A stretch of DNA of 64,000 bases, taken from Chaetoceros tenuissimus (Eukaryota; Bacillariophyta; Thalassiosirophyceae; Chaetocerotales; Chaetocerotaceae). Each line of letters starts with the position of its first letter. Position 1 is the stretch's first letter. Made by a program: the position numbers and the translations under genes. The notes beneath the pieces were generated by a model, which saw only the letters and a program-made list of their open reading frames with translations, did not search any database and had not been told where the DNA came from. The stretch is from the NCBI GenBank assembly GCA_021927905.1, contig BLLK01000069.1, forward strand, positions 806,001 to 870,000. Direction: 5' to 3'. This document shows, piece after piece, positions 19,779-64,000 of this stretch.

Positions 19779-22700
19779 TTAACCTTCAACCTTAGCACGA
19801 TATTGTTGAGGACAGCTGATTGGACAAAAGTAAAAGAACTTCTGATCCTTTGGACATCTATTCACTGGATTTTTGGCTGCCCAAGCGCATCCCTTGATTA
19901 CTCCATCGCCTGCAATGTCACTGATCCAAGTCTTGTCATTCTCTCCATCGCCAGTGTTACATGCTCGAGGACATTTTGTTTTTGCTTCCTGGTCCAATTC
20001 ACATCTGTCATCTGGCTTCTTACCAAACCAACCGCATGATCCCTTGGTTTTAGTACTAAGCCAAGTTTCATCATCTTCGTTACACTCTAAACCGCAAGAA
20101 GACTTACAGTGTTCGGATGCGCCATCCTTTCCACAACGTTTACATCCTTCATTAATCTTTGTAGCATCACCCAAAGTCAGTCCCTCGATACAAGTAGTCT
20201 CTGCATTTTGAACATCAGTGAAAGGTTTGCCACCTACCCAGTCACAATTTTTAGAAGCGTCACCTTTGAACATCCATTCATTGTTTTTACATGGGCAACG
20301 ATTACAAGTTTTTCTACAGAATTCAAAGACAAACCTTCCATTTTTGGCTGTATCTGCTTTTGCGCAACGTGCTTCTAGGTTTTGTTCTGCCCACGAACAT
20401 GGTCTGCTATCATTTTCTTGGAACAAGTAGTCAGGATCATCAAAGCAAATATTGTCAAACTCAATTACCACTGGAGCAGATGAAGGTGCAACTGATTTTG
20501 TTGGCGAAAAGGTTCCTACGATTGGTGCTTTTGACGGAGAGGCTGACGGTTTTGCAGAAGGTCTGCTAGATGGTGCTGGAACAGGTGCCTTCGATGGAGT
20601 TGATGTAGGAACGCGTTCTTTTGTTGGTGCAGAAGTTGGATCTGGAGTCACTGGAGCAGGACTTGGTTGGGTAGTAGGACCTGGTGGAGGCACATTTCCA
20701 AACATGTCATCTACACCAAATGAGAACTCTGGAAAATTCTTCCTATTTGGCAAGACATAGTCAAGTTTGTTGTTCGGAACCCCAGCCCATGATGCTACGC
20801 CACTAAAGACGGCATCCCATGGTGTACTCGGAATCATACGACCACGACCTAATGTGAGTGGCCCATCGTCTGTCAAATTATCAGGATACTCTCCTAAAAT
20901 CTTTTTGCCTTTCACAGAACCACCAAATACCATGTAGTTTCCACCCCATGCATGGTCTGTTCCATCTCCTCCATTTGGATTCAATGTGCGTGCAAAGTCG
21001 GAGGTTTGAACCACAACAGTGTTCTCCCAAACACCTAGCTCTTTCAACGCTGCTGTAAAATCTCTGATTCCCTCGTTGACTCCAATAAATCTGTTGTTCA
21101 AGTTTGTCTCGATCATAGAATGAGTATCAAATCCACCAGTCTCTACGTAAAATGTATCTGTATCGGCTCCTCTAGAACTTCTTGTCTTGATCAACTTAGC
21201 AACGGTTTCAAATTGCCTTGCAAGATATGAGGTGCCAAACTGTGTATCGAGAGTAACTCCTTCCAGCTCAGATCTTAGAACTTCGTTGTTCCCAAGAGAT
21301 GTCATCAAGTTATCAGACCACATTTCTCCAAAGAATGGAGATTCAGGCTTTGTTTGATTATGCAACTTTGGTAAATATTCTTCAACATCTCCCAAGTATA
21401 CATCTGGAACTCCATTACGGTTTACAATCATGGGAGAGGAAGATTTTCCAGGAGCACCGACCAAGGCAACACTGTATCGGTCAACAGAAAAGGAACCCAC
21501 GTTATGACCTAGTTCAATCAATGTATCAGAGATTCTTCCAAGAATTCCTGTTCCACTATTTGTGTCATAAGGGTCGACACGCTTTGACTCTCTTTGCTGG
21601 TGATTATGGGCGAAGAGTTGAGTTTGTTCCAAGGTTCTATAATTTTGCTTATTCACAGGTCTACTCATCACTCCTGTATTTGCGAAGAAGATCAAGTCTT
21701 CGTCCATGTAAAGATCTCTGACTGATGGAAGGGCACTGTGAATACCAAATTCTTCACAAATCTGATTTTCAGCTGCTGGAATATTGAGCAAATCTTGTCT
21801 TCCTAACGCAACTTGTTGTCTTACGTCAACATATTCCTGATACAAATCCTTTCCTCGAGTACAAGTGTAAGGGGTAAGCATATTGAAACTGTCACAACCT
21901 CCACTAAACATCATGAATACTACTGCTCTGTAAGGTTTTCCTGTAGCTTCAGGGAATGTCACGTCTGGTCGAGGAGTATCTAAAGGCTTGACAATACTGG
22001 TGGAATGGAATTCAGATGTAGTAAAAATCAACTTTTGCGCCATTTTTAACCCATCATCAGCACTTCCAGCTTTATTGTATGCATCAACAATAATCTGCTT
22101 GTGTTCAGCATTCAGTCTACCACCCGTAAGAAGATATGACAGCTCTTCTACTACTGATTCCGAATAGTTCAACTGTCCTACAGGATTAGGCTTGGAATGA
22201 GCAGAAATACCACAAGAAGTTCCAGAACCAGTTGTAAGAACAATGTCATCAAAGTAAATATCATATGATGGATCGTTGCTCCTTTCCCCAAGCAAAATTC
22301 TGAACGAGCTCACAGTACTAGGAATTTCAAACTGACAGTATATCCATCTGTTTCGATCAGCAGATGACCAACCCAAGTTTTCTAGAGATGTGACTCTGTT
22401 TATCAAACGCAAATCAGTATCAGCATCGGTGTATCCTGCAAATCCTCGAGATGGAGAAGCTGCGTAATACCGAAGTTTTACAACGTTTCCACTTGAACGA
22501 GGGATAACAGGACTATAGAATCGGGCATGCCAATCAAAGGCAGGTCGGAAGACGTGGTTGGAGCTGTCCGTTGGATCTTGAATCACTCCTCCCCAGAATT
22601 TCCAATTATCACGTCCAAGCCATTTGTTATCCAATCCGCCAACCAACGACGGACCTTCAAAACTTTCAGCAGTGAAAGGTGTACTTGGTGAAATACCATA

Positions 22701-25700
22701 TTCCAACGTTCCTTCAGGGGCAGGAAGATTATTTGATCTATAGCCACGAGTTCCGAAACCACCATAATCTCTTGTCAATCCATAGTTGACTAGAGAGTGC
22801 AAACCATTTAAAAGACCCACCATTTTCGGCATATCTAACAAAGTGGCTTCTGGTGAAGAGAGAGTGGCGTCGCCTACTACTCCACTAGGTTTGAACTCAG
22901 GTACTGTTAATTAAATATCGTGGCGTTAGAGGTGAATTCAAGTAAAAAGCAAGAATGAACATATACACAAAAAACAACTTACGGAAAAAACTGAACACAG
23001 ATCCAAATGAATGTGAAGTCTGTCCAATCTTGTTTACCATTCCACTCATTCTCAGCACAGGACTATCAGAATTATAGCTCATGCTTCTCATCACAGCCAA
23101 CACTTTCAAGATTGGTTCCCTCAATTGTCCTTGGGAAGGATCAGCGTCAAGAACAACAGTACGGGCCTCTCTATCTAAGTAAATAGCAGCAAAGAATGCT
23201 TCGAGGTCACCATATTTACCAGAACCAAAAGTATACGAACCGACAGTGAAAGATCCGCTTCTGAAAGAGGATGCTACACTCTCGACATATCTTGGTGATG
23301 GATTCGATGATGCCAAACGCTGAATGAATCGCAAAGCAAGGAAAGGTGCAGTGTTGTCATGATAGAAATAGTGATCTAGAACTGCATCTGTCTCAAATTC
23401 GGCATCCCTATACAAGCAAAATGAAATGAGTAACAAAACATTTCTTTCACGAAAATATCTCAAATACATGACTTACCTCAGATTGGTCTCGCTTGGAGTG
23501 AAACTCATGAACTGTGGAGGATTGCGGAAGGCAGATCCTGTGTTTTCATTTGAGGTACCTCTCACCATGACAGTTTCTATGACATTCTTCAAGAAGTAGT
23601 GTCTACCTTTGTCATTGGTATATTCAAACACTGTGTCCATGTCAATTACACCATTCTTAGCATATGTAGTGATTCCTTGACTAGAAGATACAGTGTATGA
23701 TCCAGCATCATAAATAGTTGGATCAAGAGCCCCTACATGTAGAGAATCTAGATCACTTGTGGACTGAGGAGCACTTTTCAATGCTTGACCTTCAATCACA
23801 CGCACATTACAAAGACATTTGTCTCCGTCCACTACATCGCATACATTGCCACAATTATTTGATGATTTTGGCCAGCTATTTTGTCTTGTCGTCCATTGTA
23901 CTCGGAAATAGTTTTCGTTGCTTTCTTGGAGATGGCGGACAGTATTTGCAGAGTCCACAGTACGGTGGACAATGGTCAGATATCCATCTTTTCTGATTTT
24001 TACATGTAACGAACAACTGTCCGATGTCCAAAAGTACAAGGAGTTCTTGGTGCGATCACCATCCACTCTATAGAAGTCGCAAAGTTCTCGTGACACATTG
24101 GTACATCGCTCGTTTGCCTCGTCGAAAAGAACGCGCTCTCCGTCATATTTGGAATATCTTAGACCATTAATCTTGAATTGCTGACAACATGCCTCCGCTG
24201 CTTCTGGCAGCTTTGGATTTGCACACAATACTCCAATCCTGTCACGACTATCTCTTGGAGAGATTTTCTTCGGATCTTTGTAAAATGAAGTTTGTACACA
24301 AGGTTGTTGCACATATTCATAAAAAGCCCCGTCTGCAACTTGGACTACTCTGATATGATCAACGCCACATTCAGGTGATGAGTTACAGGTGGAAATACTA
24401 CTGTCTAGGACTACAGTATTCTCATATCGGCATTTTCCTTGACTATCTGCATTACAGAGTTTTTGTCGCAGCAGGGAGTTATTATCCAGGACTATTCTTT
24501 CAATGTTACTCATTGTTGCAAATCCATTTGGATCGGTCACGAGCTGTGGGAGTGGCGAACTAGAAGAAAAAACATGAGATTATTTCATTCGAAGCGAAAT
24601 ATGATGTGTTCGATACTGTGATACTTGAAATGAACAAGAGATGCTTACCTTCCTAGAAATCTAAACTTTGCATTCTTCTTCAAAAATGCCTTTGCAGGAA
24701 TATCTTCGCACTTTACATATCGATCTCCTATATAACCCCCTGTAGAGTCAGACTTGGGGAATCTATCTCTCCATAAAGGCTCGATTTTCATAGGATCGAG
24801 ACGATTGTCTCTACCTTCAATATTGGAACGCCTTGGCTGTAGATCAAACCCTGTCCAAGCTCTAGCAAATGATTCAATATCATCATTTGTGTATGCCAAA
24901 ACCATATTACCATTTTCGTTCAAGAATGGTGTTCCATCAAGGTTGAGTTTATTGATACCCATCGAAAATAATTGCATGATCTAAAGAAAGAAATGTCAGT
25001 TTTTATTTCAATCATGACAAAAGTCTAGTATTCAACTTCGAAAACTTACCTCTCTTGCAAAATTTTCATCGGCTTGGGTTTTCACATTATCTTTTTCCCA
25101 CAAGTACGCAGATGATTTACTACGCAAGAAAGAAAGATTTTCTGCCATGATGGGAGAAAATGAAATCTCTTTCAAAATATCGCGGTAATTACCAAACGCA
25201 TTTCGAACAAAAATATCGTAATAGTACAAAAACCATTCAGCATAGTTGAATCCATCACTGACGGCTTCGGTAACCACAACCAAAATCTTGGGAAAGGGAC
25301 TGGATTAGAGTTTCCAAACAAGATACAATCACCAAACTGAAATGGACCAAAACTTACCTGTGCCAAACTCCATGCAATTCTTTGTCTCATTTGATCAGGA
25401 GCTGAAAGAGTGAGCTGATACCAAACATTCATTTTGTCTTCCCCAGAACTATAAAATCCAGTACTATAGTCATCTCTCAAACCGTATACAAACTTCAACC
25501 CTTGGTCATTATCAATCTCGCCATGAGAACCGCACACGAGAATACCATTGTCATTATCATCAGGTGGATCGTAGTAGGATGTCACATTTTCTGTTCTGAA
25601 CTCATTAGGAAAGTCACGGATACGAATGTCATCTCCAAATCTTCCAACGTACGAAAATTTCAGTTTATTTTGTTCCCATCTGAGCATGTTGTGAGGTCTT

Positions 25701-28700
25701 GTAGGACTTTCGTTGGGGAAAATTAAGGTTGTACCATTATTTTCTGCCCACTTCATGATAGGTTCTGCCATTCCTGGATGCTTATCTAACCAATATGTCA
25801 TGTCATAAACACTCATATAGTCATCATGAACTCTCTTGTAGCAAGTAAGACTTCCATCTTCTTGATTATAGACTTCAATTTCAATGACTGGATTAGTGTC
25901 GGTACTATTGCATGTTCTACCTGCTTCAGGGAAATAAATATCCGTAATGTAAGGATTATCATCACCACTATTTTGCAAAAGATAGTGAAGAGTATCATTT
26001 GTTCCACTCAAGATTTCTGTGGCGTTACAAACGTCAATCTTTTCCCATCTAGACCTCATACCTGGAGTGCACGGATGAGGCAAGGAAGTAGGAAAGTCAC
26101 TATTTTTTTCTGTTTGGTCAATAACATTGACTCCCTTGATCTGGTATACGTAACGACCAGTCACTAGATAGTTCAGCTCACGAATGGTGGTGTTATCTAG
26201 AGTGACTCTCTTGGCAGAGTCTGCCGAAGTCGGACGACAAGCATTCGATGATAATTTACAACTATCTTCATTCAAGAAATTCCTTGCAACATTAGAACAG
26301 AGAGCCCTTCCACCTGAGGCAATCTTTTTGGTTTTTCCACCATCGGGGATTGGTGAATTCGGAGTATTTTTGTCAAGAACAATACGACTATCAAAAATTA
26401 GCCATGTTCCATCATTGACCTTTCCAAACACAGGTTTACCACCAAACTAGAAATGCATTAAAGTTAGACTATGACCGAGACACATGTAAAGGCAGAAGAA
26501 AACAGTTGAACATGATAAATCTTACCTCTTCTGGTACATCAGGGATACTGTTACAAATATTACTAGTGATTGCATTTGAATGGATGAGGATTTCTTCATT
26601 TGATATATATGTGTCAGTAACTGCAAGGTCGCCTGCATTCAAATTGATAATGTAATTAGAGAGGTTCTCCGCACCGTCAAGATTTACTTGAGGGTTCTCA
26701 GCCTCGACACAAGTTCCGTTTTCTAAGCGGAACCAAAACCTTCCATCGACTCTTTCATCCGTTTCTCGGCATATGTCGTAAACAAAGTCTGGATCGAAAG
26801 TGTAGTCTTGTCTATCCTTCCAGAAATCAGCTACACGAGTTCTGAAGACATTATCGAGGTACAAGTCAAAAGGTCCATTTCCTTTGACTTGTAGGTCCTT
26901 TGGAGCTCTCCACATCATGTCATTTCTTACAAAAGAAAACTTACGCCACTTGGAATTTGCATCACATGGATGATTCGGAGAACCAATCTGAGAAGCACTA
27001 GGAATTCTTTCACCGACCCTTTCTCTCCAATACTTTCTATGACTTGTTAAGGATGTTACACTCTTGTCAACCTGTTGACTGAACCAGGCTGCAATAGCAT
27101 TCAGGTTTCCATTTGAATTTGCAGAGTTAGTAAGATCGGTGAGTTCAGAAGAGGTCACACCAAAAGTACTAGTCTCCAAAAATCTTGCCATTTCACCCTT
27201 TGTATCGAGTGAGTGCGTGAAAGATGATAAACGATATTCTTCACCAGAGCTCAAGGGTGGGAGATCTATCTGACAGTATGAATCATTATTGTAACAAAGC
27301 ATGTCCGAAGGAATAAAACGACTTGCGATTTCTCCTGCAGCACGCTCCCACTTTCCTCCAGCATACGAACGTGCCATTGGAATAGTTTTGATTACTTCAC
27401 CTCCCACAATTGTCACTTTCGTAACAGTACATACTGAATCTGCTGAAGCTACTTGGATCTTCACGCTTTCGTGTTGAAGTTGCACTGAAGTATCGACTGG
27501 AGGACAGATAGCACTGACACTCGTGGTTGGTGATTCAGTGATGGCAACAGGCGCAGCTGTTGGAGGAGCTGGAATGGACTTTGTTGGATTGAATGTAGGT
27601 GTTGCTGTCGGACTCAAGGTACTACGGTATTTTCCATATAGATGAGAGAATTGTTCAAACAAAGAGAGAAAATGGAAAAAATAATTGACTTACGTTTTGT
27701 GACCAAACGAAACATCATCAATCAAAAGTACTTGGTCATTAATGGAATAAAGACCTAGACCAACGCGTACTCTCTCACAAGTGGACAAAGCTGCGTTTAC
27801 GCTGAAATCAAATGTGAATTTGTTGAAGGAATCTTTATTCCATGGCTCCTGTGACTCGTTCCATAGGTATTCCTCGATTCTTTGGCCAGTTTGATCATCA
27901 ATGGTACAGTCCTCACCACGCATGTAAATCAACGGACAGTGATCATTGTCCCAGTAATTACGCTCAGCAGTGTCACATGTCATTGTCGTCTGATCTGTTG
28001 CATTCAATAATTTAAATTGTGCCGTAATTTCTGTATTTCAAAGTAAACAGTTAGACATCAATAATATCACTTCGTGCTAGTAATACCCATGAACTTACCA
28101 AATACTTGTCCTTCCTCGAAACAACGAGCGTCTAGTTCTTGCCAGAAAAATGTACCACGATCTGATGTTACAAAGCGTAAAGCATACTCATCATTAGCTC
28201 CACCAGGAACAATAGTGAAGGTACTCGCACCACTCCATTGTCTCCAATAAGAGGAATCTCCAGCCTCAAATGAGCCATTTTGGAGCATATTGTTACAGAA
28301 GCGACTCAAAGGAGTCATTTTAACGTCATCTATTTGCACAACAGCATCTACATGGGTATCAAGGAATCGAAGATACATAGAACTATGACCTTCCGCTTTC
28401 TCAGATACAGTGTAAATACCAGCATATCTATCCCACCCATCATACAAACCTTCAGATATTGAAATTCCTGTCGAAATTTCCTCTCCGCTATGACCAACCT
28501 CACTACTATCAGTTCTCAAATACATCCTACCACACCTACTCAAATCTGAACTACCGGTTCCAGTTGTACATCTCACATGCCTTCCACTGCTGTTGATAAT
28601 GCGAAATTTTGCTTGGACTAAGAAGCGATCTCCCTGGGATATGCGAAACGGAAGCATAAGTCTTTTTCATTGTATCAATGATAATCTTCCTCGAAGAACT

Positions 28701-31700
28701 TGTTTCACCAACTTACCTTCTTAAAACAGTTTCTATCGGCATACAGATATTGCACAAGACCATGATCAGTTCTGTCTTTCTCCTTAAACTCAATAACATT
28801 ATTGTCGCCAATAGAGACAATGTTGTACTTGACGGTTCCATAATTTTGCCAGAACTTGGTATTTCCTGAATTGAATTTACCGTTTCTGATAAAGTTCCCT
28901 GTGCATGCTGCCTCCATTTTTGAGACCGAAAAGTCATCCACAATAATGTCTAGAGTTTTGTGCACATATTCGATGTAAATCCATGCACGACGCGTCTGAG
29001 AAATTCTCTCATTTACTTGAAAAACACCATGAATCATGTTAAAACCGGTAGGGTCGATAGGTTGCACGGTCTTACCATGATGGTCGTGATTCCAATCCCA
29101 TTTATCCTTTGTTTCAAAATCTGGATGAAAACCATTTTTCAGAGTAAGAATTGGACATTCAACCAAATTATCTATGTAAAATAAAAATAAATATCAGAAA
29201 AGCGGACTTGTAAATGTGCGCAACAAACATTGTAATACTCACTCCCAGAGTATGCATCGCACACGTGCTGTAATCCAGTTGTTTCATTAATTGACTTGAA
29301 CATTACGCTGATCTCATAGAATTCGTTTACATTGTCACGGAAGCATCGAACGTCAAGTGTTTGTCCGATCCCATCGTAAAAACTAGTTCTGTTGACATTC
29401 TTCAATGCAGGGGAATTGTCTACTCCACCATTTGCGAGTGCAATCACACCACCATTTCTGTGTCCCCAAAAGAGTGGGCCCTGACCCATATCTGAGTTTT
29501 TAATAAGCTCATTACATTCATTTTCACTCAATGGTGGCTCAACAAGAGTCACGTCAGTTCCGTTGGCATAACCATCACATTCTGGGATTCCTTCCCATAT
29601 CTCGTATGCAGATCCTGGCCAAACTACCTCATCCACATCAACAAATTCAAACTTGTAACTTCCCTGTGGGAGAGCAATATGAAATTTTCTCTCGTTATCT
29701 TCTGTGCGATATTTCTTAATATCTTCAGGTCCATCATAAGGGTAGTAACTAGCTGCATATGTAACTCTTTCTTCACCAAACTTGCTGTCGGAAGCTCTTG
29801 TAACCTTCAAATCAAACTCGCTGGTTTCGATTTGGTTCGCAAAGACAGTCACCCCTCGGTAACATGTATTTGGACAATAGGCCATACCAAGGGCTGAATA
29901 ACTTGTACAATCTGATGCGAATGCAGTGAGATGTTCCTTGTCGCTGACAAACACCGAAGCACTGCTCGATTGCTTAGCCGGATCAGAGCCTCCATCGGGA
30001 TCCACTACAACAACATCATGAACCCCGTCTTCATTTGCATTCGCAGTTTGCAAGTCGATAGTATTTGGTCCATCAAAAGTAACATCCTTGAAGGAAGAAA
30101 CATAGTTGAAATGATGATTGTCTCTTTTATCTGACGTGTTGATACCGATGGAAGTACTGTGGGAACAATGATACTTTTCCTCCAGGTTGAAGTATTGCCA
30201 CTCATCACTATGACCAAAGTCGTAGAAATCCACATTGCTCATGGACATTCCTCTGTTATTTTTACCATCATTGGAGAAGTCAGATCGATGAATTTGTGAC
30301 TGCATTCTATATCCCATTGGGTACGGCCAACGTGACTTGCAAGGTGAACTAAAATAAGGACGACGTGAAAGTTCTTCCATTTCTTGAGATAGGCCTCGGA
30401 TCACAGTATCAGATACTGACACATCATCGCTCCATCTCATTTCTACTCCGTATCCATTTCCAATCAAGTTACTATTACGCAAGGTTGCAAATCTTGCATT
30501 ATACATGTAGAATCCGTGGTAACGATTGTAGAAAGAGATGACATTATCAATACTGATGGCCTCATCTTGTTCATGATTGTCAAAACGCATTCCAAGTTCA
30601 AGATTACCGCCAGCAACATTACCAGAGAATCTTCCCATAGGAATACGTCTCATGTTTCCCGAAACATAAGTGTTGTTCTCAACTCTCAATCTCCAATCAT
30701 TGGAAAATCTGAAACCATCTCCTTGATTTCCAACAGCAATATTGGATATATAGTCATTGGGGCCATTAACGTTGACGATACCACTAGCTTGGTTATCGCT
30801 CTCACCAGGAATGTCCTCTTTATGGTGAATGTTTCTGCTATGGGAAACATAATTACCAGAAATTGTGTTATCACTAGCATTGTGACCAACAAAAATACAA
30901 TGTCCATAATTATTTGCAGCAACATTGTCAGACAAAGTGATGTTGGCAGTACCATCAATAACAATACAGCGCTGCTGAGAATCGTGGATCGAGTTCTTGG
31001 AGATCAAAGTTCCAGGTAAGCTCCCAGAGTATTGGATCTGGATAGGGAATTTGTCCTCTTCTCCACGACGTCCCATGTGTTCGAATTCAACACCAGAGAT
31101 CAATTGGTCTTGATTTGTTGTATGTAGTACTTGCAAGTACGCTCCTAAAGAGAAAGTAGACATTAGAAGGGTGAGAGACAAACTAGTGCGCTTTTTTTAT
31201 GAAAAAAGTGTTCACAATACGTACCTTTTCTGTTCTCTAGCTCATCTACATCACCTCCAATCTTCACATTTCTAGAAACTAAAGCAACTTGAGCAGCTAA
31301 CAATATGGAATCTTGTTGAGTGGTAATAGGTAAAGTTGGGATGTCTTTCAATTCAAGAACTCTATCACCACCGTTAGTTTGAATGTTGAGAATATCCGAG
31401 GTAAATGAATTGGGCAGTACTGATTGTGATTCACTAAAAAATACAGAAGTTCCAACTTGTACTTCAGCTCCTTCTCCCCAACAAACAGTATCATCATTGG
31501 ATACCACTAATCTATTGATAAATCCGCGTTTGCGCTTAATACTAATGTCGTCGTAATCAATACTGAATAGTTCATTGCTATCATTGATTTCAAAACGGAA
31601 TTCGACCTTCTTTGAGTCTGCAAGCTTGTGGTCAACCGTAAAGATTCCAGTACAAAGTACAAAACCATCACTATATGTTTGGAATGGACATTGTACAAGT

Positions 31701-33680
31701 GAACGATGGTAAGCACTTCCCTCATTTGGTTCTACTCTCACGTGCATGTATCCGCGTTGCTGAGACAAAGTGTGAAGCCTGATTCTTGCACTAACTTCAT
31801 ACTCGACACCTTTATCCATACACCTCGGATCAAGTCTTGTTTGGATTCCGTCCCATCTTCCCTTTCTATCAGAGTAATGGAAGTACTTGTTAGAGTTATT
31901 TGCATCACTTCGAACTTGAATGTAACCACCCCAAGAAATAGGGTAGAAAGGATAAGGATTGTAACCATTAGTCTCAGCATCACCGTTCCCAATGAGTTCA
32001 GAACAGACATCACTTGGATTCAAGTATGTGTCTTCTGAAGGAAGAGAAATCTCAAAGTCCTTCATACTCAGGTCCGCGCCAGCTTCAGTATCAACCAACT
32101 CAAGGACTACATTTGTTCAAAAAGTCAGGTTTAAATCTACACTTTCATTTTCAATGAGAAATATGTAAGCGCAATAAACGTACCTGTATAAGTGGTATTT
32201 GTCCAAAGGTGATCTTCTCTAAACTTGATTGTGGCTGTAAATTGGTACCATTCTCCATACTTTGGTGGAGCATTGGAACTGATGCGTCTAAGTTCAGTAT
32301 AACGTTCCCCCATACCTGGCCGCCCAGCATGGATATTCAATCTTGGACAGAGTCGCCTGTTTGGGTGTCAAGATTAGAAAATCTCCTTTGTAAAAGTTTC
32401 TTTCGAAAAATTATTTTCCATTTTCACTTACCAGCTTTTGGAGCAACGGGTATATTCGCCAACTTTTCCTTCAGGACTATCTATCTTCAATCTCACCGAG
32501 AAGAGGTAATCTCTATCAGGTTTTAAGCAAAGCTGAGGATTCAATTTGGTAATATCAAGCATAGGCCCAGTTTCATTTCTCTGACGATTCGTTACTTTCA
32601 GAGCTCCATCACTAACCTCAACATATGCACCCCATCCTCCTGTCCAATTACCTACATTTCCGTCGTCAAAAGTATAGCTTAGCAAAGTAGTTCCAGACTG
32701 TGGGCAAGTGTTTGGAAATTCCTCATACTTTGGAAAATCAGAAGAATCTTTTACAGGAACTGTGCGAAGAACGTTTTTGATTGGAGTATGAGTCTTGCAA
32801 GTGTTATCAGGGAAGGCATCAATGTTTAACTTTCCTCCAGCCACGAAGAAAGGTTTCGGACCGAGGTTACAGCTTCCATTAGGACATACATTTTTATTTG
32901 GGTTTTCAGTCATGAAGTTGGTGAACATGACATCAGATGTACCAGTGATGTTGAAAACCACAGCCTCGTTGATTGGGGCAATGTCTCTATCCGCCTTGAT
33001 TTTTAGCTAAGTATTTGTGTGGAAAGGGAGTAATCGGGATGAGTCATACATTCCTACACATGAAAAACATATCTTTTAATGGAACTTACCTCTCCTTGTA
33101 CAATCACAAACTTGGTTCTAATGGTCACTTTCCAGTTATTTGGAAACTTGAGCTTTCCAATAACGTTAATTCCTCCACTGATAGTCACATCGTCTCCAGG
33201 AACTCTCCAAGTCCTGCACTGACCACATGGAATGGTAAGAAGACTAGAACCGACAGAGGTGAGATCGGTCAAGGTGAGATCGGTACAAGTTGCAGAGTTG
33301 AGATTCTGGTTACATTCCAAAGGGTGGAAGGTTCCAATAGCTGCTGAGGTAGCTGAAAGCTGGCGCTTTTCATCAGCAAGGTTGAACATGGAAAGCAATC
33401 TCGATCCGGAAGAGCGGCGGTCTTTTTCATCCTCGTCAAATAAAGGGAGCATGAACTCCTCTTCATCCTCTCGGTTTGCAAAAACCTCCTCATGAGGTGG
33501 TACCTTGGGAAACTCGTTCTCTCGGTCCACATGGAATGGTGCCTCAGGGTTGAGAGCATCATCAAAGCTTGCTAGATTTCCAGCCGCGTCTAGAAATGTC
33601 TCCCCGACAGGGTCGACGTCAACTTTAGACGCTGCCTTACCTAGAGAGCCTAGAACGAAGAGAGTGCTGAACATCCTCAT
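19779..33680 (-). CDS. Giant secreted multidomain protein: G8, beta-helix, CBM-like modules, DUF1800, DUF1501, Cys-rich tail
   Basis: Fifteen exons joined by 14 introns of 68-89 bases, all in phase, encode about 4,278 residues. Exons run 33680-33090, 33006-32432, 32356-32184, 32106-31225, 31144-29243, 29171-28717, 28633-28099, 28030-27694, 27621-26526, 26446-25358, 25286-25050, 24980-24649, 24559-23477, 23407-22983, 22903-19779. Domains: signal peptide; G8 (~122-300, CRTWRVPGDDVTISGG); jelly-roll carbohydrate-binding-like modules (~300-640); right-handed beta-helix repeats (~670-1100); more CBM-like modules (~1250-1820); Pro/Thr linker; DUF1800 (~1961-3250; REIMQLFSMGINKLNLDG, YYDIFVRNAFGNYRDIL); a sandwich insert; the last DUF1800 helix; DUF1501 (~3560-3950; FMMFSGGCDSFN, TGGFDTH, GTDHAWGG), an alkaline-phosphatase-like fold; Pro/Ser linker; four or more Cys-rich W-C modules. 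A role on extracellular polysaccharide is inferred. Confidence 0.88.
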
Positions 33681-57969: not shown

Positions 57970-60900
57970 TTACTTCACAAAACTTGAGAGTAATGCTTCT
58001 ACGATTGCATTCAGGCTTACTTCTCGGTACTCTTTTCGTTTGTAGAGAGGAATGGCAATATCTGCAAAGATTTCATCTGCAAAGGATCCAGGTACTTGAT
58101 TGAAGAACAATTCAAAGCCGCAAGCACCTCTTTCAATATCCTTCTCATGAACTAATATAATTGGAATATTGGCATCCTTTATTTCTCGTATCTCGTCCAA
58201 GATAGTCTCAGAGGATTGAAATGTATCTTTGTTCAAGTATAAAACAACAGCGTTAACGTGGCGTCTCTCCATATCCTTCTCGAAGAAACGGGATCCTTTC
58301 TTCTCTTTCATCACCCAACTTCGATCAAGTCCATGCAAAGAGCGTAAAGAAACGGGGTTTGTTGGAACTTCTTCATACCCTGTTCTTAATGTAACCTTCC
58401 CTTCGAAACCATTGTCGATGAATATAGATGAATCTTCTGAGCGATAACTCAAAAAGGACTGTGAGTCGCTCAACGAGTCTTTCTCAAGTCCTTCTTCATT
58501 GGTTGGGTCAGTATATGACTTTTTCAAGCTTTGGGTATCTGAAGGAACATTTATTGGAAATGCTGTATTCTCTATCTCTCTCTGAATACTTATGTTGGGG
58601 CAGATTCTTTTCAAGCTTTCCATTAGGTCCACTTGTACATCATTGTTGCTGCATCCAAGAATCCTTAACATGATAGATACGTTTTGCGTAAAAGTCAATA
58701 GATTTCTCATCCTTTTTCTACATGCAGAATCATTGGGGAGATCAATACCAGCATCTAGAAGTTGCCTACGATCTTCGCTTGAATAGTATGGTAGTTTTTT
58801 CAAGAGATGTAAGTAAATCAGCTTCAGCGACTCAGAGGAATATTGACCTTCCTTTAACCATTGGAGAGAAAGCACATCGAAAGAGGCTGAGTCGGTGCAG
58901 AACACTTCATTAGTCTCAGTCTTCTCCCCTGTGCACTTTGATATAAAAGTTTCCACGTGAGACTTGATTTTGATTATGGTATACGTCATGGAAGCTTCGG
59001 CATTTACAAGTTGTCTTTTATTCAAAATATTTTCCTCATCTGATGCAACAGTAAAACCAGTAATCTCAGTCTCACATGCAAACCTTTTCTGAACATATTC
59101 TCGAATAATAGTTTCATCTAATGCAAACTCTTTACATTCCTGCACCAGACTCAATAGTTTATCATCATCACCGTCATAAAGGACAATAATTGGTTTCTTC
59201 AACAAAATAGCATGGAAGAACTCTCTTCTGCAGTTTTTCGAACGAAAATATCCTGGACTGTATACAATAACAATAACAACAGACTGTTCAATAAACTTTT
59301 CAAGGTCTCCAGTACTGAGAAGATTATCCACATCGAGCCATATTTGTAACGATGGCAAATGCAGTTTCATTTTCCTTGTTATGGCATGAGTTATATCTTG
59401 CGCACCATCCCAACGATGGCTCATAAAAACATGAAATGAATTTTTTGTAGGCATCTCAAGATTTGGAGGATATTTTGTCTTTCGCAACCTTGATATTGGA
59501 ACTTTTTGTGACATAGCAAATAATATCGCAACAGTTGTAACTAACATTACAAAGGCACTAATAGCGACCATTGTAGATGCTTTTTCCTCCGTCCATGCTC
59601 CATGGACAAATTCCTCACATTTACCTTCAGAGCCTTGACCACATATATTCAATGGAATGCTCAAGAAAAAGGTTGCTGTCACAATGACATTTGAAACAGT
59701 ACTAAGCAATTGGTCGTCCCCCCTTTGATATGGTTTTACATAAATATTTGCTGAAGTCATTAACAAAGATATAAGCCCTCCAAAAACCAGTCGAAGGATT
59801 CGACCTCTCCCTGCCTTTGTATCAAGGTAGTTCATGAACCAGTTAAAAATATACGCCGCAAAATTTCAAAGAATTCCCACATAATTGTCCAATCAGATCT
59901 TTTATCGTAGTCTCGCCACAAGAAGCTACATGAAAGAGCTAACGAAGAGGGCCTATACAATCTAATCGACTTCTTAATCCGGAGTAAGAGTTGTAGAAAG
60001 AATAGTGGCACCACGATCGACCAAACAACAAAGAGAACATTAGATGCAACCAATAGTTGCATATAATTCGAGTCATGCTTTTCATCACACTTGATGTTCA
60101 TATCCATGCGCAGAAATGAAACAAAATTAGGTACAGGCACTGTATCGTCTATGTCAAATGGTTGACATTCACGGACTTCAAAAACTCTGTATCATTAATC
60201 ATTAGATTCAGCTTTGGATACATGAATAAAAATTAACGCAAGTAACTTACTTCTGGACTATGGAGGGAAAAGTAAAATAGAGGATTACGACTCCGACTTG
60301 TCTTGCATTTACCTTCTGGATGAAAGCAAGTGACTTCCAACTATCCTTGATGCATCTTTTGAAAACAGATAACATTGTAATTATACTTCCAAGAATAAAA
60401 AAGGGCCATACACAATGACAGATGTATATAAAACGAGTTGACATCCTGAAACATGAAGGAGCAAAAAGAAATCTTGTAAAAAGCAATTCGATATCAAAAG
60501 ATATGATTCTCAAGGCTGTGTTGAGAAAACTCATATCTTCGTGCAGTTGTGCTCCATATACATTTGTAAACGAAGACAGAACCTGTATGAAGCCGACTAA
60601 TATCTTTGCTTTCGCAATAATACTGAGGCTTAATAAAATCTCCACGAGACCATCAAACCTCTGCACAAGAAACCATCCCAGAAGCACCATCACTAAACAA
60701 GCAATGGACGCAGCCACAACAACAATTGCAATACTTCCCGAGCTTGGACAATGTTCACACTGCCCTTCCTGCTCATCAAAGTACATGTTTTTCTCTTCAC
60801 AAAGACGACAAAGTGGTCCTTGATGACCGTCTGAGCAATATCTGGAATAGTCTCCCGGGTCCTCGTGATCACATGCGGGCCCATCAAGGCATTCATAAAT

Positions 60901-63900
60901 TCTGGTAGTTGTAGGTGATGCCCGCCAAAAGCCATTTTTTATTTTCATGCTGTATATGGAGGTATTCTCTTTGCAAGTTGCATCTTTTGGACACGGTTTA
61001 CAAAACTTGTTTGGTTCGGCAAATAAGTCAGACATAGACACGTTGAGCTTTGTAGCATTTTCAGTCATGTAGAAACCTTCCTTACAAAAACTGCATTCGC
61101 TACTGTTTTGATTGGAACTCAAGGGGGATGGGCAACGTTGACATTTGTTTGTGGGGATGAACTCATTGCTGTTTGCAAAGCTTCCACCTTCACATACAGC
61201 ACATCTCTCCATATCCCAGGTGCTAGTATCATTCTCATATCTTGTAAAGCTGTTGTAAAATGTGCCAGATTGACAAGTAGTACATTCATCTTCACCGAAT
61301 TTTCTTTGGCCAAGTTGACAAGAGTTGATACAACGCCCAAACTCTTGCATAATGTCAGGAAGACATTCTTCACATCCAGTGGCAAATGATGAACCTGACT
61401 TCTTTCCCATGAATGATGGGCATCTAAAGCACCAACTGGTTGGATGAATCTGACTCCCACCATGAGGACATGGTTCAAATGGAACAATATAATTTCTGCC
61501 TTTGTTACTTGAGAGCACAATATCATCCCAACCATCTGCTGTAACATCTGATACTACTATGGAGGTTGTAAAAAGATCTTTTGGTGTCTGCAGCACAGTT
61601 TCTACAGTGGTAAATCCACGCATGCTATTCCTGAGCAGAACAATGTCGCTATCACCCTGACAAGTTGTGTACTGTGAGAGAGCAGTCATCAAACAAATAT
61701 CTAGATGGAGTGTTTAAATAAAAACTCACCGAACCGATTATAATATCAGGTAAGTTGTCATGGGTTATATCAGCCACAGCGATGGCTTTGGTTCCAATTT
61801 CTTTTAAATCAATGTCTACATCTTTGTCAAAACCATCACCAGAATAATTTTTAAAAATGCTTAAAAGTGTGGAATCCTTGGTTGTCACATTTCGCAAACC
61901 TATCAAGACATCATTGTCTCAGTCATTATTAATATCAGAAAGAACAAAACTTTCAATGATACAATTTGTCGGTGGCAAGTAGACTTCATCTGGGTCGTAG
62001 GAATAAGACCAATCATTAAAATCTGTATTTCTCAACATTATAATTTTCTCAGCAGATGCAACCATGATGAGAGGCCTATGATGAAATGAGGATGCCAATG
62101 AGGCTGAATGAAAGTACAATATGTCCAGGTTGGAAAACATTATTCCAAAATTACTTACCCATTCATAAAATTTTCTCTATCTGGAAGAGTTTGAATCGCA
62201 ATGGTTGACCAGTTCGCTTCTGGTAGGAAAATCTTTTTCGGAGTTTCCAAAGTATCCACTAAAGAAAAAACCTCCAGGAAATTAGCCGATTCAAAGCCAA
62301 ATACAACACTAACATCATCACCCTTTTCGACAATTACAGAAGCAGAAGTCCTGTAGATATTTGGGAAGGTAATATTTCTTAAAGATTCAATGTTTGTTCC
62401 ATTTTGAGTAACATTGTAGTAGACCTCATGATCCTGTTCTCTATTTCCAAACACAATGGCACGAGTATCACCAATGTCTGAAACGATTACTGTTGAGCAA
62501 TTGTAAATAGACGAAAATTCGGTAGATTCAAAGTCGATACCAGCTTTGTTGAATGCTATGCTATTTGACATTTCATTGCATGAGATCAAGTCCACATATC
62601 CATCTTGGTCCACATCCTTTGCTACCATCATGTTCGTTTTCCCTGTTGAACCGACCATGGGAACTTCATCCTTAAAATATACTTTTAAAGCATTTAGGAA
62701 CACATTGATTTTGTTCTGGGCCCAGAAAGATGCGAAAAGAGTTTTTAGACAAACTTGAAATGAGAAATCTGTGTATTTGCAAAACAATCAACACACCTTG
62801 TTGTATGAGATGAAAGACGGGATTTTGTCACCGTTAGGGTCTCCAAGAAACAGTTTCGAGGTACCATCATGAAGGATGTGTTCGTTAATGGGTTGAAAAG
62901 TAGGCTCAGTAAATATCGCACCTCCAATGTTGAAATGTACCCAAACTCTATCAGAACTTTTTCCAAAAATATCCAAAGTGCCATCTTCACAGCTGGTTAG
63001 AGAAGGACTCAGATGTAAACGAGATAGCGAAAACATGATGGACAGTTTAAAACTCACCTCCATTAACATCTCCAACTCCTTCCAATTCTAGGTTTCCCTG
63101 AAGAACAATATTGTCTTTTTCATATACACCCGAAGGTCCATCCTCATTTCCAAGTACGACTCTGTTGTCTCCATCGTCGCCTTGTACGATTAGGTCAATG
63201 AAGGAATCTCCATTCACATCACCTACGCAACAAATTTCACTAATGCCATTAATTTCATTGCATTCAGCAGTCATTACATTCTTAGCATCCTTCTTTGTCT
63301 TACAAAGTTTTGGTGGAGCGGTGTCGTTAGGAATGATGAAATCACTGTAATTGTTATGGTCGACATCGCCTAAAATGAGAATTTTATCTGAATAGGTTTC
63401 TCTATCATCCCTCAGCGTCGGTCCTTGTGTGATCTCAACTGCAGACCTAAAACTTGAGGTTTCATTTGAAGACTCATTCAATGCATTCGCGAGAAATATG
63501 TATGATGTAAATTCTGTTGAATTTGTACTCTTCATAGCAACACCAACTAGGATATCAAGGAAACCAGAATCATCCAGATCTGCAACTTCCATAGTCATAA
63601 ATTCAAGGATCTCAATGTCATCACGGATATCTAATGACTCACGAATCATATCAGTTTCCAAGAGAATCATTTCTCCAAATGTTTCATCCCGTTTATTACT
63701 GTAAAGAAGAAGATATTCCTTTTCTAGAATCAAAACATCAACGTAATCATCATTGTTGAAGTCAGCCACTTTCATATCTTTTGCTGCGATAGTTCTGTTT
63801 TGATTGAGATATCCTTTGAAACCGCGCATGTAGAAAATCTCATTAGGTAAATCAGGACCTGTCCCTACAATGATATCATTCCTTCCATCCCTATCTAAGT

Positions 63901-64000
63901 CACCCAGAGCCACTACTTTCACATCTTTCAAGTTTCTGCCACCTTTGTAAAACTCATACACCTCCATGACATCATCAGACGAAAAGCCACTACTTTGAGG
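57970..64000 (-). CDS. Receptor-like protein: VCBS/FG-GAP ectodomain, Cys-rich repeats, multi-TM, cytoplasmic TIR (partial; frame interrupted)
   Basis: The 5' end lies outside the window. Exons: 64000-63058, 62984-62797, 62715-62159, 62075-61730, 61656-60251 and 60186-57970, with introns of 64-83 bases in phase. Order: VCBS/FG-GAP calcium-loop repeats (ALGDLDRDGRNDIIVG, ADLDDSGFLDILVG, VDQDGYVDLIS); Cys-rich repeats like GCC2/GCC3; five or more membrane spans with WEFFEILRRIFLTG between them; then a TIR domain opening FHVFMSHRWDGAQDI, with QIWLDVDNLL, VVIVIVYSPGYF and SKNCRREFFHA, whose Glu fits the TIR NADase position. A C-terminal stretch (AVVLYLNKDTF) looks like a second half-TIR. Two problems: an in-frame TGA at 61921-61919 where a VCBS loop expects Gly, and a one-base frame change near 59832-59836. 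It could be a damaged allele, a new pseudogene or assembly error. Confidence 0.75.

Follow-up and report, generated by a model that had tools for sequence, protein, structure and literature searches.

The 64,000-nucleotide (nt) stretch of Chaetoceros tenuissimus DNA analysed here (contig BLLK01000069.1, positions 806,001 to 870,000; hereafter the window) carries on its minus strand, from 33680 to 19779, one large gene in which the domain families DUF1800 and DUF1501 are fused behind a beta-helix and carbohydrate-binding modules (CBMs). Its 15 exons join into a single open frame of 12,837 nt, equivalent to 4,278 amino acids (aa), with one terminal stop. All 14 introns are of the GT-AG type and 68-89 nt long, as derived from the exon coordinates, the splice junctions having been read off the sequence itself. 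The original prediction of fifteen exons with matching phases that encode one protein was thus borne out. A model of 16 exons produced by automatic splicing contained several false introns and was discarded for the 15-exon version. Pfam matches above cut-off were obtained for DUF1800 (PF08811; E-value (E) 1.5e-44, 153.3 bits vs 26.1) and DUF1501 (PF07394; 3.5e-22, 79.5 bits vs 27), as well as for CEMIP_beta-hel (7.4e-24), CBM_4_9 (5.5e-19) and Beta_helix (4.2e-10). Scanning the protein in pieces yielded further matches below cut-off (G8-like, two CBM_4_9-like, MAM-like jelly-roll and cytochrome-b5-like). The features are as follows.

19779..33680, minus strand: full gene of 15 exons, predicted to encode 4,278 aa
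33680-33090, 33006-32432, 32356-32184, 32106-31225, 31144-29243, minus strand: exons 1-5
29171-28717, 28633-28099, 28030-27694, 27621-26526, 26446-25358, minus strand: exons 6-10
25286-25050, 24980-24649, 24559-23477, 23407-22983, 22903-19779, minus strand: exons 11-15
33630..33680, minus strand: start codon (ATG 33680) and hydrophobic N-terminus (aa 1-17), a possible signal peptide, read from the sequence
32941..33176, minus strand: G8-like stretch (aa 169-219), PF10162 at 14.0 bits vs cut-off 22.9, E 0.048, sub-threshold
32473..32685, minus strand: CBM_4_9 beta-sandwich (aa 305-375) between G8-like stretch and beta-helix, PF02018 5.2e-6
31577..31999, minus strand: CBM_4_9 beta-sandwich (aa 483-623), PF02018 5.5e-19 (N-terminal half; best stretch)
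30588..31225, minus strand: CEMIP/TMEM2-type beta-helix (Pfam match aa 741-926), PF24606 7.4e-24; TMEM2 crystal structure 8c6i, E 2.5e-6
28014..28896, minus strand: CBM_4_9-like modules at aa 1467-1535 (E 0.011) and aa 1640-1710 (E 0.032), both weak and under the cut-off
26916..27218, minus strand: DUF1800 piece 1 (aa 1952-2052), a weak match (13.0 bits) over profile positions 55-138, colinear with the other pieces
25439..26915, minus strand: DUF1800 insert 1 (aa 2053-2518, 466 aa), a gap between profile pieces
25673..25882, minus strand: part of insert 1 resembling cytochrome b5 (about aa 2371-2440), PF00173 at 19.6 bits vs 23.7, E 9.2e-4
24774..25438, minus strand: DUF1800 piece 2 (aa 2519-2693), holding DENFAREIMQLFSMG, 171.2 bits
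23401..24773, minus strand: DUF1800 insert 2 (aa 2694-3098, 405 aa), without credible Pfam match
22779..23400, minus strand: DUF1800 piece 3 (aa 3099-3279), 135.7 bits
22164..22778, minus strand: DUF1800 insert 3 (aa 3280-3484, 205 aa), possibly jelly-roll, MAM E 0.017, below cut-off
22005..22163, minus strand: DUF1800 piece 4 (aa 3485-3537), the C-terminal end of the domain, 10.6 bits, colinear
20727..21947, minus strand: DUF1501 (aa 3557-3963), about 20 aa after DUF1800 in the same exon, 312.2 bits; model with a predicted local distance difference test score (pLDDT) of 88.3
19782..20687, minus strand: linker rich in proline and threonine with a C-terminal tail rich in Cys (aa 3977-4278); PT repeat under the cut-off (E 2.7e-4)

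The fusion of DUF1800 and DUF1501, in the order anticipated by the original prediction, is real. Exon 15 holds the end of DUF1800 together with the entire DUF1501 and lies within an uninterrupted frame of 1,043 codons, so that the join does not depend on splicing; under a simple base-composition model, a stop-free run of this length would arise by chance with a probability of about 10^-30.5. At three of the 14 splice junctions the sequence on both sides is homologous to bacterial DUF1800, so that the homology continues across them. The DUF1501 motifs GTDHAWGG and TGGFDTH and the DUF1800 motif REIMQLFSMGINKLN, which spans splice junction 11/12, had been described as intact and are indeed present in the translation. 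It could be argued that two adjacent genes were misjoined, with exons 1-8 forming a beta-helix/CBM gene and exons 9-15 a DUF1800-DUF1501 gene, as the two halves have no above-cut-off domain in common. However, exons 8 and 9 are only 72 nt apart, with GT-AG borders and matching phase, and exon 9 starts within a proline/threonine linker. Its first in-frame Met lies near aa 1899 with no visible signal peptide, and the DUF1800-DUF1501 join itself is inside one exon. We thus regard a misjoined pair of genes as most improbable.

In bacteria, DUF1800 and DUF1501 have already been published as operon neighbours, including operons linked to chitin synthase, and a functional link of the pair has been proposed, according to the accessible part of PMC5122149. 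A search with a DUF1501 alignment matched at least 575 GTDB loci. In 79 of the 80 top-ranking ones DUF1800 lies immediately upstream of DUF1501, the exception (L078) lying at a contig edge. The same arrangement was found in 7/7 plasmid loci and in 15 of 18 loci of a viral collection; L083 and L098 were counted despite overlapping starts of their open reading frames (ORFs), L100 and L101 are near contig ends, and L102 has no DUF1800. None of the 2,556 six-frame ORFs (at least 100 aa) in these 105 bacterial, plasmid and viral-collection loci was a DUF1800-DUF1501 fusion. Since the 105 loci had been picked by similarity to the window, evenly drawn genomes (120 Pseudomonadota and 99 Bacteroidota) were examined too. 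With downstream and upstream defined as same strand, same contig and no more than 2.5 kb from the Pfam match, DUF1501 followed in 87 of the 88 DUF1800 places above cut-off, and in the lone exception (G012) DUF1800 begins at base 2 of the contig. Eight chosen genomes gave 22/23 (exception G008:C151). One sub-cut-off DUF1800 row (Pseudomonadota) and two sub-cut-off DUF1501 rows (Bacteroidota) are omitted from the drawn-sample counts, and four DUF1501 rows from the eight-genome counts, namely three below cut-off and G006:C77:5127, which is marked as over cut-off along with its neighbours. The drawn samples take in G002, plus G003 and G004 from the DUF1501 scan. The claim that the two families are commonly separate adjacent genes in bacteria agrees with the bacteria sampled, and the bacterial pairing in the same order as the fusion supports its reading as a Rosetta-stone link. 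The argument that DUF1800 and DUF1501 are partners in a working pair is strong.

Both families are spread over several bacterial phyla. Of 61 Chloroflexota genomes, 27 contained a match to alignment A2. The exon-15 frame found no match in a phage collection or in viral contigs, while alignment A1 recovered 18 relatives from the latter. Five tblastn places for the window DUF1501 were observed on a Vibrio maritimus plasmid (L003 and NZ_CP090440.1), whose recorded source is the diatom Skeletonema costatum.

The front half had been described as holding G8, beta-helix and CBM-like modules. The CEMIP beta-helix and CBM_4_9 modules were established by Pfam; the G8 domain is only suggestive (14.0 bits, E 0.048). 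With respect to the CEMIP/TMEM2 family, the protein has the beta-helix and a sub-threshold G8-like stretch. A link to carbohydrate, as originally proposed, is supported by these modules and also by the genes found downstream of the bacterial pair. An F5/8-type-C domain was present in 28 of 50 co-directional downstream ORFs and a secretion tail in 19 (E 0.001 or better in both cases); 22 of the 50 had no F5/8 domain. Altogether 69 ORFs lay no more than 500 bp away, and these 50 are the co-directional ones. In a previous selection of 78 neighbours that also took in upstream ORFs, 26 had an F5/8 match. As controls we used 93 of 100 ORFs (from 131 candidates) belonging to the same loci, restricted to L008-L069, seven being omitted by no rule; F5/8 was absent from the list of families that had at least two control members, and hence matched at most one of the 93. 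Fisher's exact test gave 4.9e-15 for the enrichment, assuming 1/93 and ignoring relatedness among loci. Many of the loci are related Bacteroidota, so the independent events are fewer than the counts. A single CxxCH motif was seen in four of the 50 downstream neighbours (L013, L022, L044 and L065).

A DUF1800 profile built from 76 GTDB rows scored 336 bits on the window protein, in four colinear pieces that extend over profile positions 55-581 of 585, with 304-324 and 499-526 uncovered. The domain is thus broken by three inserts of 466, 405 and 205 aa, a discontinuity that was first noticed in the present analysis and is absent from the original prediction. An internal insert of at least 40 aa was found in only one of the 76 bacterial rows (L046, 96 aa), the rows being scored against the profile built from these same 76; the set omits L078, which has no DUF1800, and the incomplete L015, L018 and L033. 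Of 44 columns at least 95% conserved in the bacterial rows, 36 are kept. Insert 1 contains the stretch resembling cytochrome b5. In a longer query its PF00173 match had an E-value of 0.0066, and comparison with the cytochrome b5 chain 1cxy (E 0.015) aligned HPG and a later PH, whose His residues we take to be the heme ligands of 1cxy. We treat the b5 match as no more than suggestive. For the DUF1800 fold, an AlphaFold2 model of a Vibrio coralliilyticus protein (L020:6084-7856; pLDDT 91.1) found no match in the PDB by Foldseek (best E 0.92). In a viral library the same model matched one viral DUF1800 protein at 2.0e-19, demonstrating that the search was able to work. A sequence search for solved relatives of DUF1800 and DUF1501 found none. 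DUF1800 may accordingly represent a new fold, as far as Foldseek reaches.

Genome surveys further revealed that DUF1501 falls into two classes. Weak-scoring DUF1501 (E 1e-60 or more) was paired with DUF1800 in 87 of 90 cases in the drawn genomes, strong-scoring DUF1501 in none of 13, where the boundary (strong, E below 1e-60) was set after the scores had been seen. The window DUF1501 belongs with the paired class: DUF1800 directly precedes it, it carries the G[TS]DHxW motif, and its 79.5 bits fit the weak class, which reaches 159.1 bits, whereas strong-class places score 239.6 bits or more. Upstream of strong-class DUF1501, PSD1 (DUF1553) was found in 34 of 35 places (G001, G003, G004, G006); for the weak class the count was 0/12, G007 places left out. 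All 28 distinct PSD1 genes in 30 loci (L194-L223) contained a CxxCH c-heme motif. This profile-based set derives from 42 PSD1 matches listed, with many reading frames cut at the locus edge; PSD1 ORFs from a motif filter gave 22/22. According to the accessible text of PMC5615132, PSCyt2 and PSCyt3 genes usually adjoin genes of two unknown families, and a carbohydrate role has been suggested for PSCyt/PSD proteins.

These observations bear on the possibility that the protein is a heme-linked oxidoreductase, whose b5-like insert would carry electrons for DUF1800-DUF1501 chemistry on polysaccharide. The b5-like stretch itself, the heme-motif PSD1 beside the other DUF1501 class in four genomes and the carbohydrate role suggested for PSCyt/PSD proteins all point in this direction. 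On the other hand, the b5 match stays under the Pfam cut-off, CxxCH occurs in none of the 76 bacterial DUF1800 rows and only rarely in the downstream neighbours, and homology between DUF1800 and PSD1 was not significant (best E 0.034-0.057 with 18 PSD1 rows, slightly better than three controls at 0.26-0.77). We consider a heme-linked enzyme improbable. More speculative still is the idea that DUF1501 is central to two secreted systems running in parallel, in which DUF1800 or heme-motif PSD1 is the partner, both performing redox-assisted polysaccharide chemistry and the algal form being a single b5-carrying extracellular enzyme; this would be a long shot. The division into DUF1800-paired and PSD1-paired forms offers a simple frame for both DUF1501 classes.

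A DUF1501 profile (80 GTDB and 6 viral-collection rows) gave 312 bits on the window protein. Of 58 columns at least 95% conserved in the 80 bacterial rows, 45 are kept, including D3575, N3578, H3670, D3830, H3832, R3876, D3887 and H3888. In the GGxD, DxH, S[DE]FxR and GxDH motifs the D, H and R residues are retained. The AlphaFold2 model (pLDDT 88.3) was led in its Foldseek matches to the PDB by sulfatases (best E 3.9e-7), with lipoteichoic-acid synthases and a phosphoethanolamine transferase also among them. The assignment of DUF1501 to the alkaline-phosphatase/sulfatase-like fold, made in the original prediction, is supported by this model, with low template modelling scores (TM-scores). Twin arginines occur in the leader of 79 of the 80 bacterial DUF1501 rows. 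No such leader could be read from the translation between the DUF1800 end and DUF1501 of the window protein, so that export would run through the endoplasmic reticulum; the protein is probably secreted.

Taken together, we read the gene as a bacterial-type DUF1800-DUF1501 pair made into a single chain behind a TMEM2/CEMIP-like beta-helix and CBMs, and predict a polysaccharide-directed, metal-dependent enzyme; we give this reading an even chance. The beta-helix and CBM modules would hold an extracellular polysaccharide, and DUF1501, which probably belongs to the alkaline-phosphatase/sulfatase fold and depends on a metal, would act on the polysaccharide or on an attached ester group. DUF1800 would serve as its dedicated partner and build or position the active unit, while the fusion would set the DUF1800:DUF1501 ratio at 1:1. 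A sulfated or phosphorylated polysaccharide is a plausible candidate for the target; the original prediction would place it in the wall or mucilage and have the two families work as one complex.

Several findings weigh against such an enzyme. DUF1800 pieces 1 and 4 are weak alone (13.0 and 10.6 bits), and H305 and K310, each present in 76/76 bacterial rows, could not be traced next to insert 2, in an uncertain part of the alignment. Thirteen conserved DUF1501 columns are not kept; three belong to the leader, outside the query, and others are real changes. Examples are D3820, E3783 and A3669, which replace Q, A and S respectively, each of these being present in 80/80 bacterial rows, and the SHxDQ motif (S 80/80, D 78/80) reads AHNHQ. 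In the 50 Foldseek matches listed, TM-scores were 0.25-0.47 with root-mean-square deviations of 8-21 Å. No sulfatase-type nucleophile was located in DUF1501, neither among the conserved columns nor in a local sulfatase profile alignment, which stops short of that region. That alignment (hhalign) placed SDF with SDN over only 47 columns (P 0.0019, probability 14%); a global hhalign run against sulfatases gave a meaningless result.

Some of these points would fit a structural or adhesive matrix protein, in which the fused pair has ceased to be catalytic and forms a folded scaffold among carbohydrate-binding modules. The three large inserts in DUF1800, nearly without parallel in the bacterial rows, the altered SHxDQ motif with the other changed DUF1501 columns and the unrecovered H305 and K310, and the proline/threonine linkers with the Cys-rich tail are consistent with such a role. 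So is the behaviour of TMEM2, the solved beta-helix relative, for which the authors could detect no hyaluronidase activity (PMC10206443, accessible part). However, DUF1501 retains invariant residues, the putative metal ligands among them, which a dead scaffold could do without. We therefore judge the scaffold rather unlikely and rank it second to the polysaccharide-directed, metal-dependent enzyme, the heme-linked enzyme being the boldest proposal. The natural fusion in bacterial gene order provides a single-chain target for testing the pair as one functional unit, and its carbohydrate modules point to the substrates to try first.

A bacterial source of the pair is the natural reading. In a DUF1501 tree of 81 rows, built with a quick method, the branch to the window row is 3.11 long, compared with a median of 0.37, and no donor can be named because of this length. 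Algal DUF1800 is not new, since PF08811 is given as "2 of 10" in an Emiliania huxleyi gene set in the accessible part of PMC7563939. The DUF1800-DUF1501 fusion was reported in no title or abstract found in the open-licence literature searched, which is no proof of absence, and is not described in the accessible parts of PMC5122149, PMC7563939, PMC6653060, PMC4452313, PMC4960237 and PMC5615132. The papers found there likewise gave no characterised function for DUF1800 or DUF1501. Elsewhere in the window, the minus strand at 57970-64000 holds a possible receptor-like gene with FG-GAP repeats (PF13517 4.7e-9) followed by TIR_2 (PF13676 7e-7); a stretch between them looks Cys-rich and hydrophobic by eye, and the pieces may belong to a single gene.

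Among known systems, the bacterial DUF1800-DUF1501 operon pair is the closest in composition, with the same families in the same order and most conserved residues kept in the fusion. It consists of two ORFs, whereas the fusion is one chain with three inserts in DUF1800 and a beta-helix and CBM modules in front. The bacterial DUF1501 carries a twin-arginine leader, and the fused DUF1501 has none before it. The chitin-synthase-linked operons (PMC5122149, accessible part) contain the same pair. In planctomycete-type pairs DUF1501 likewise has an upstream partner, but this is PSD1, a family different from DUF1800 and without significant homology to it. S1 sulfatases and other enzymes of the alkaline-phosphatase superfamily share the overall fold of the DUF1501 model, yet identity is 8-15% in the matches listed, TM-scores are low and a motif of the CxPSR type, which we take to be the defining nucleophile motif of sulfatases (PF00884 type), was not located. 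Finally, TMEM2/CEMIP resembles the front half in its G8-like start (sub-threshold in the window protein), its beta-helix and the beta-sandwich material in between, which in the window protein consists of two CBM_4_9-type sandwiches. The sequence match to TMEM2 (8c6i) is limited to about 120 residues (E 2.5e-6), and the TMEM2 domains described in the accessible part of PMC10206443 do not include DUF1800 or DUF1501.

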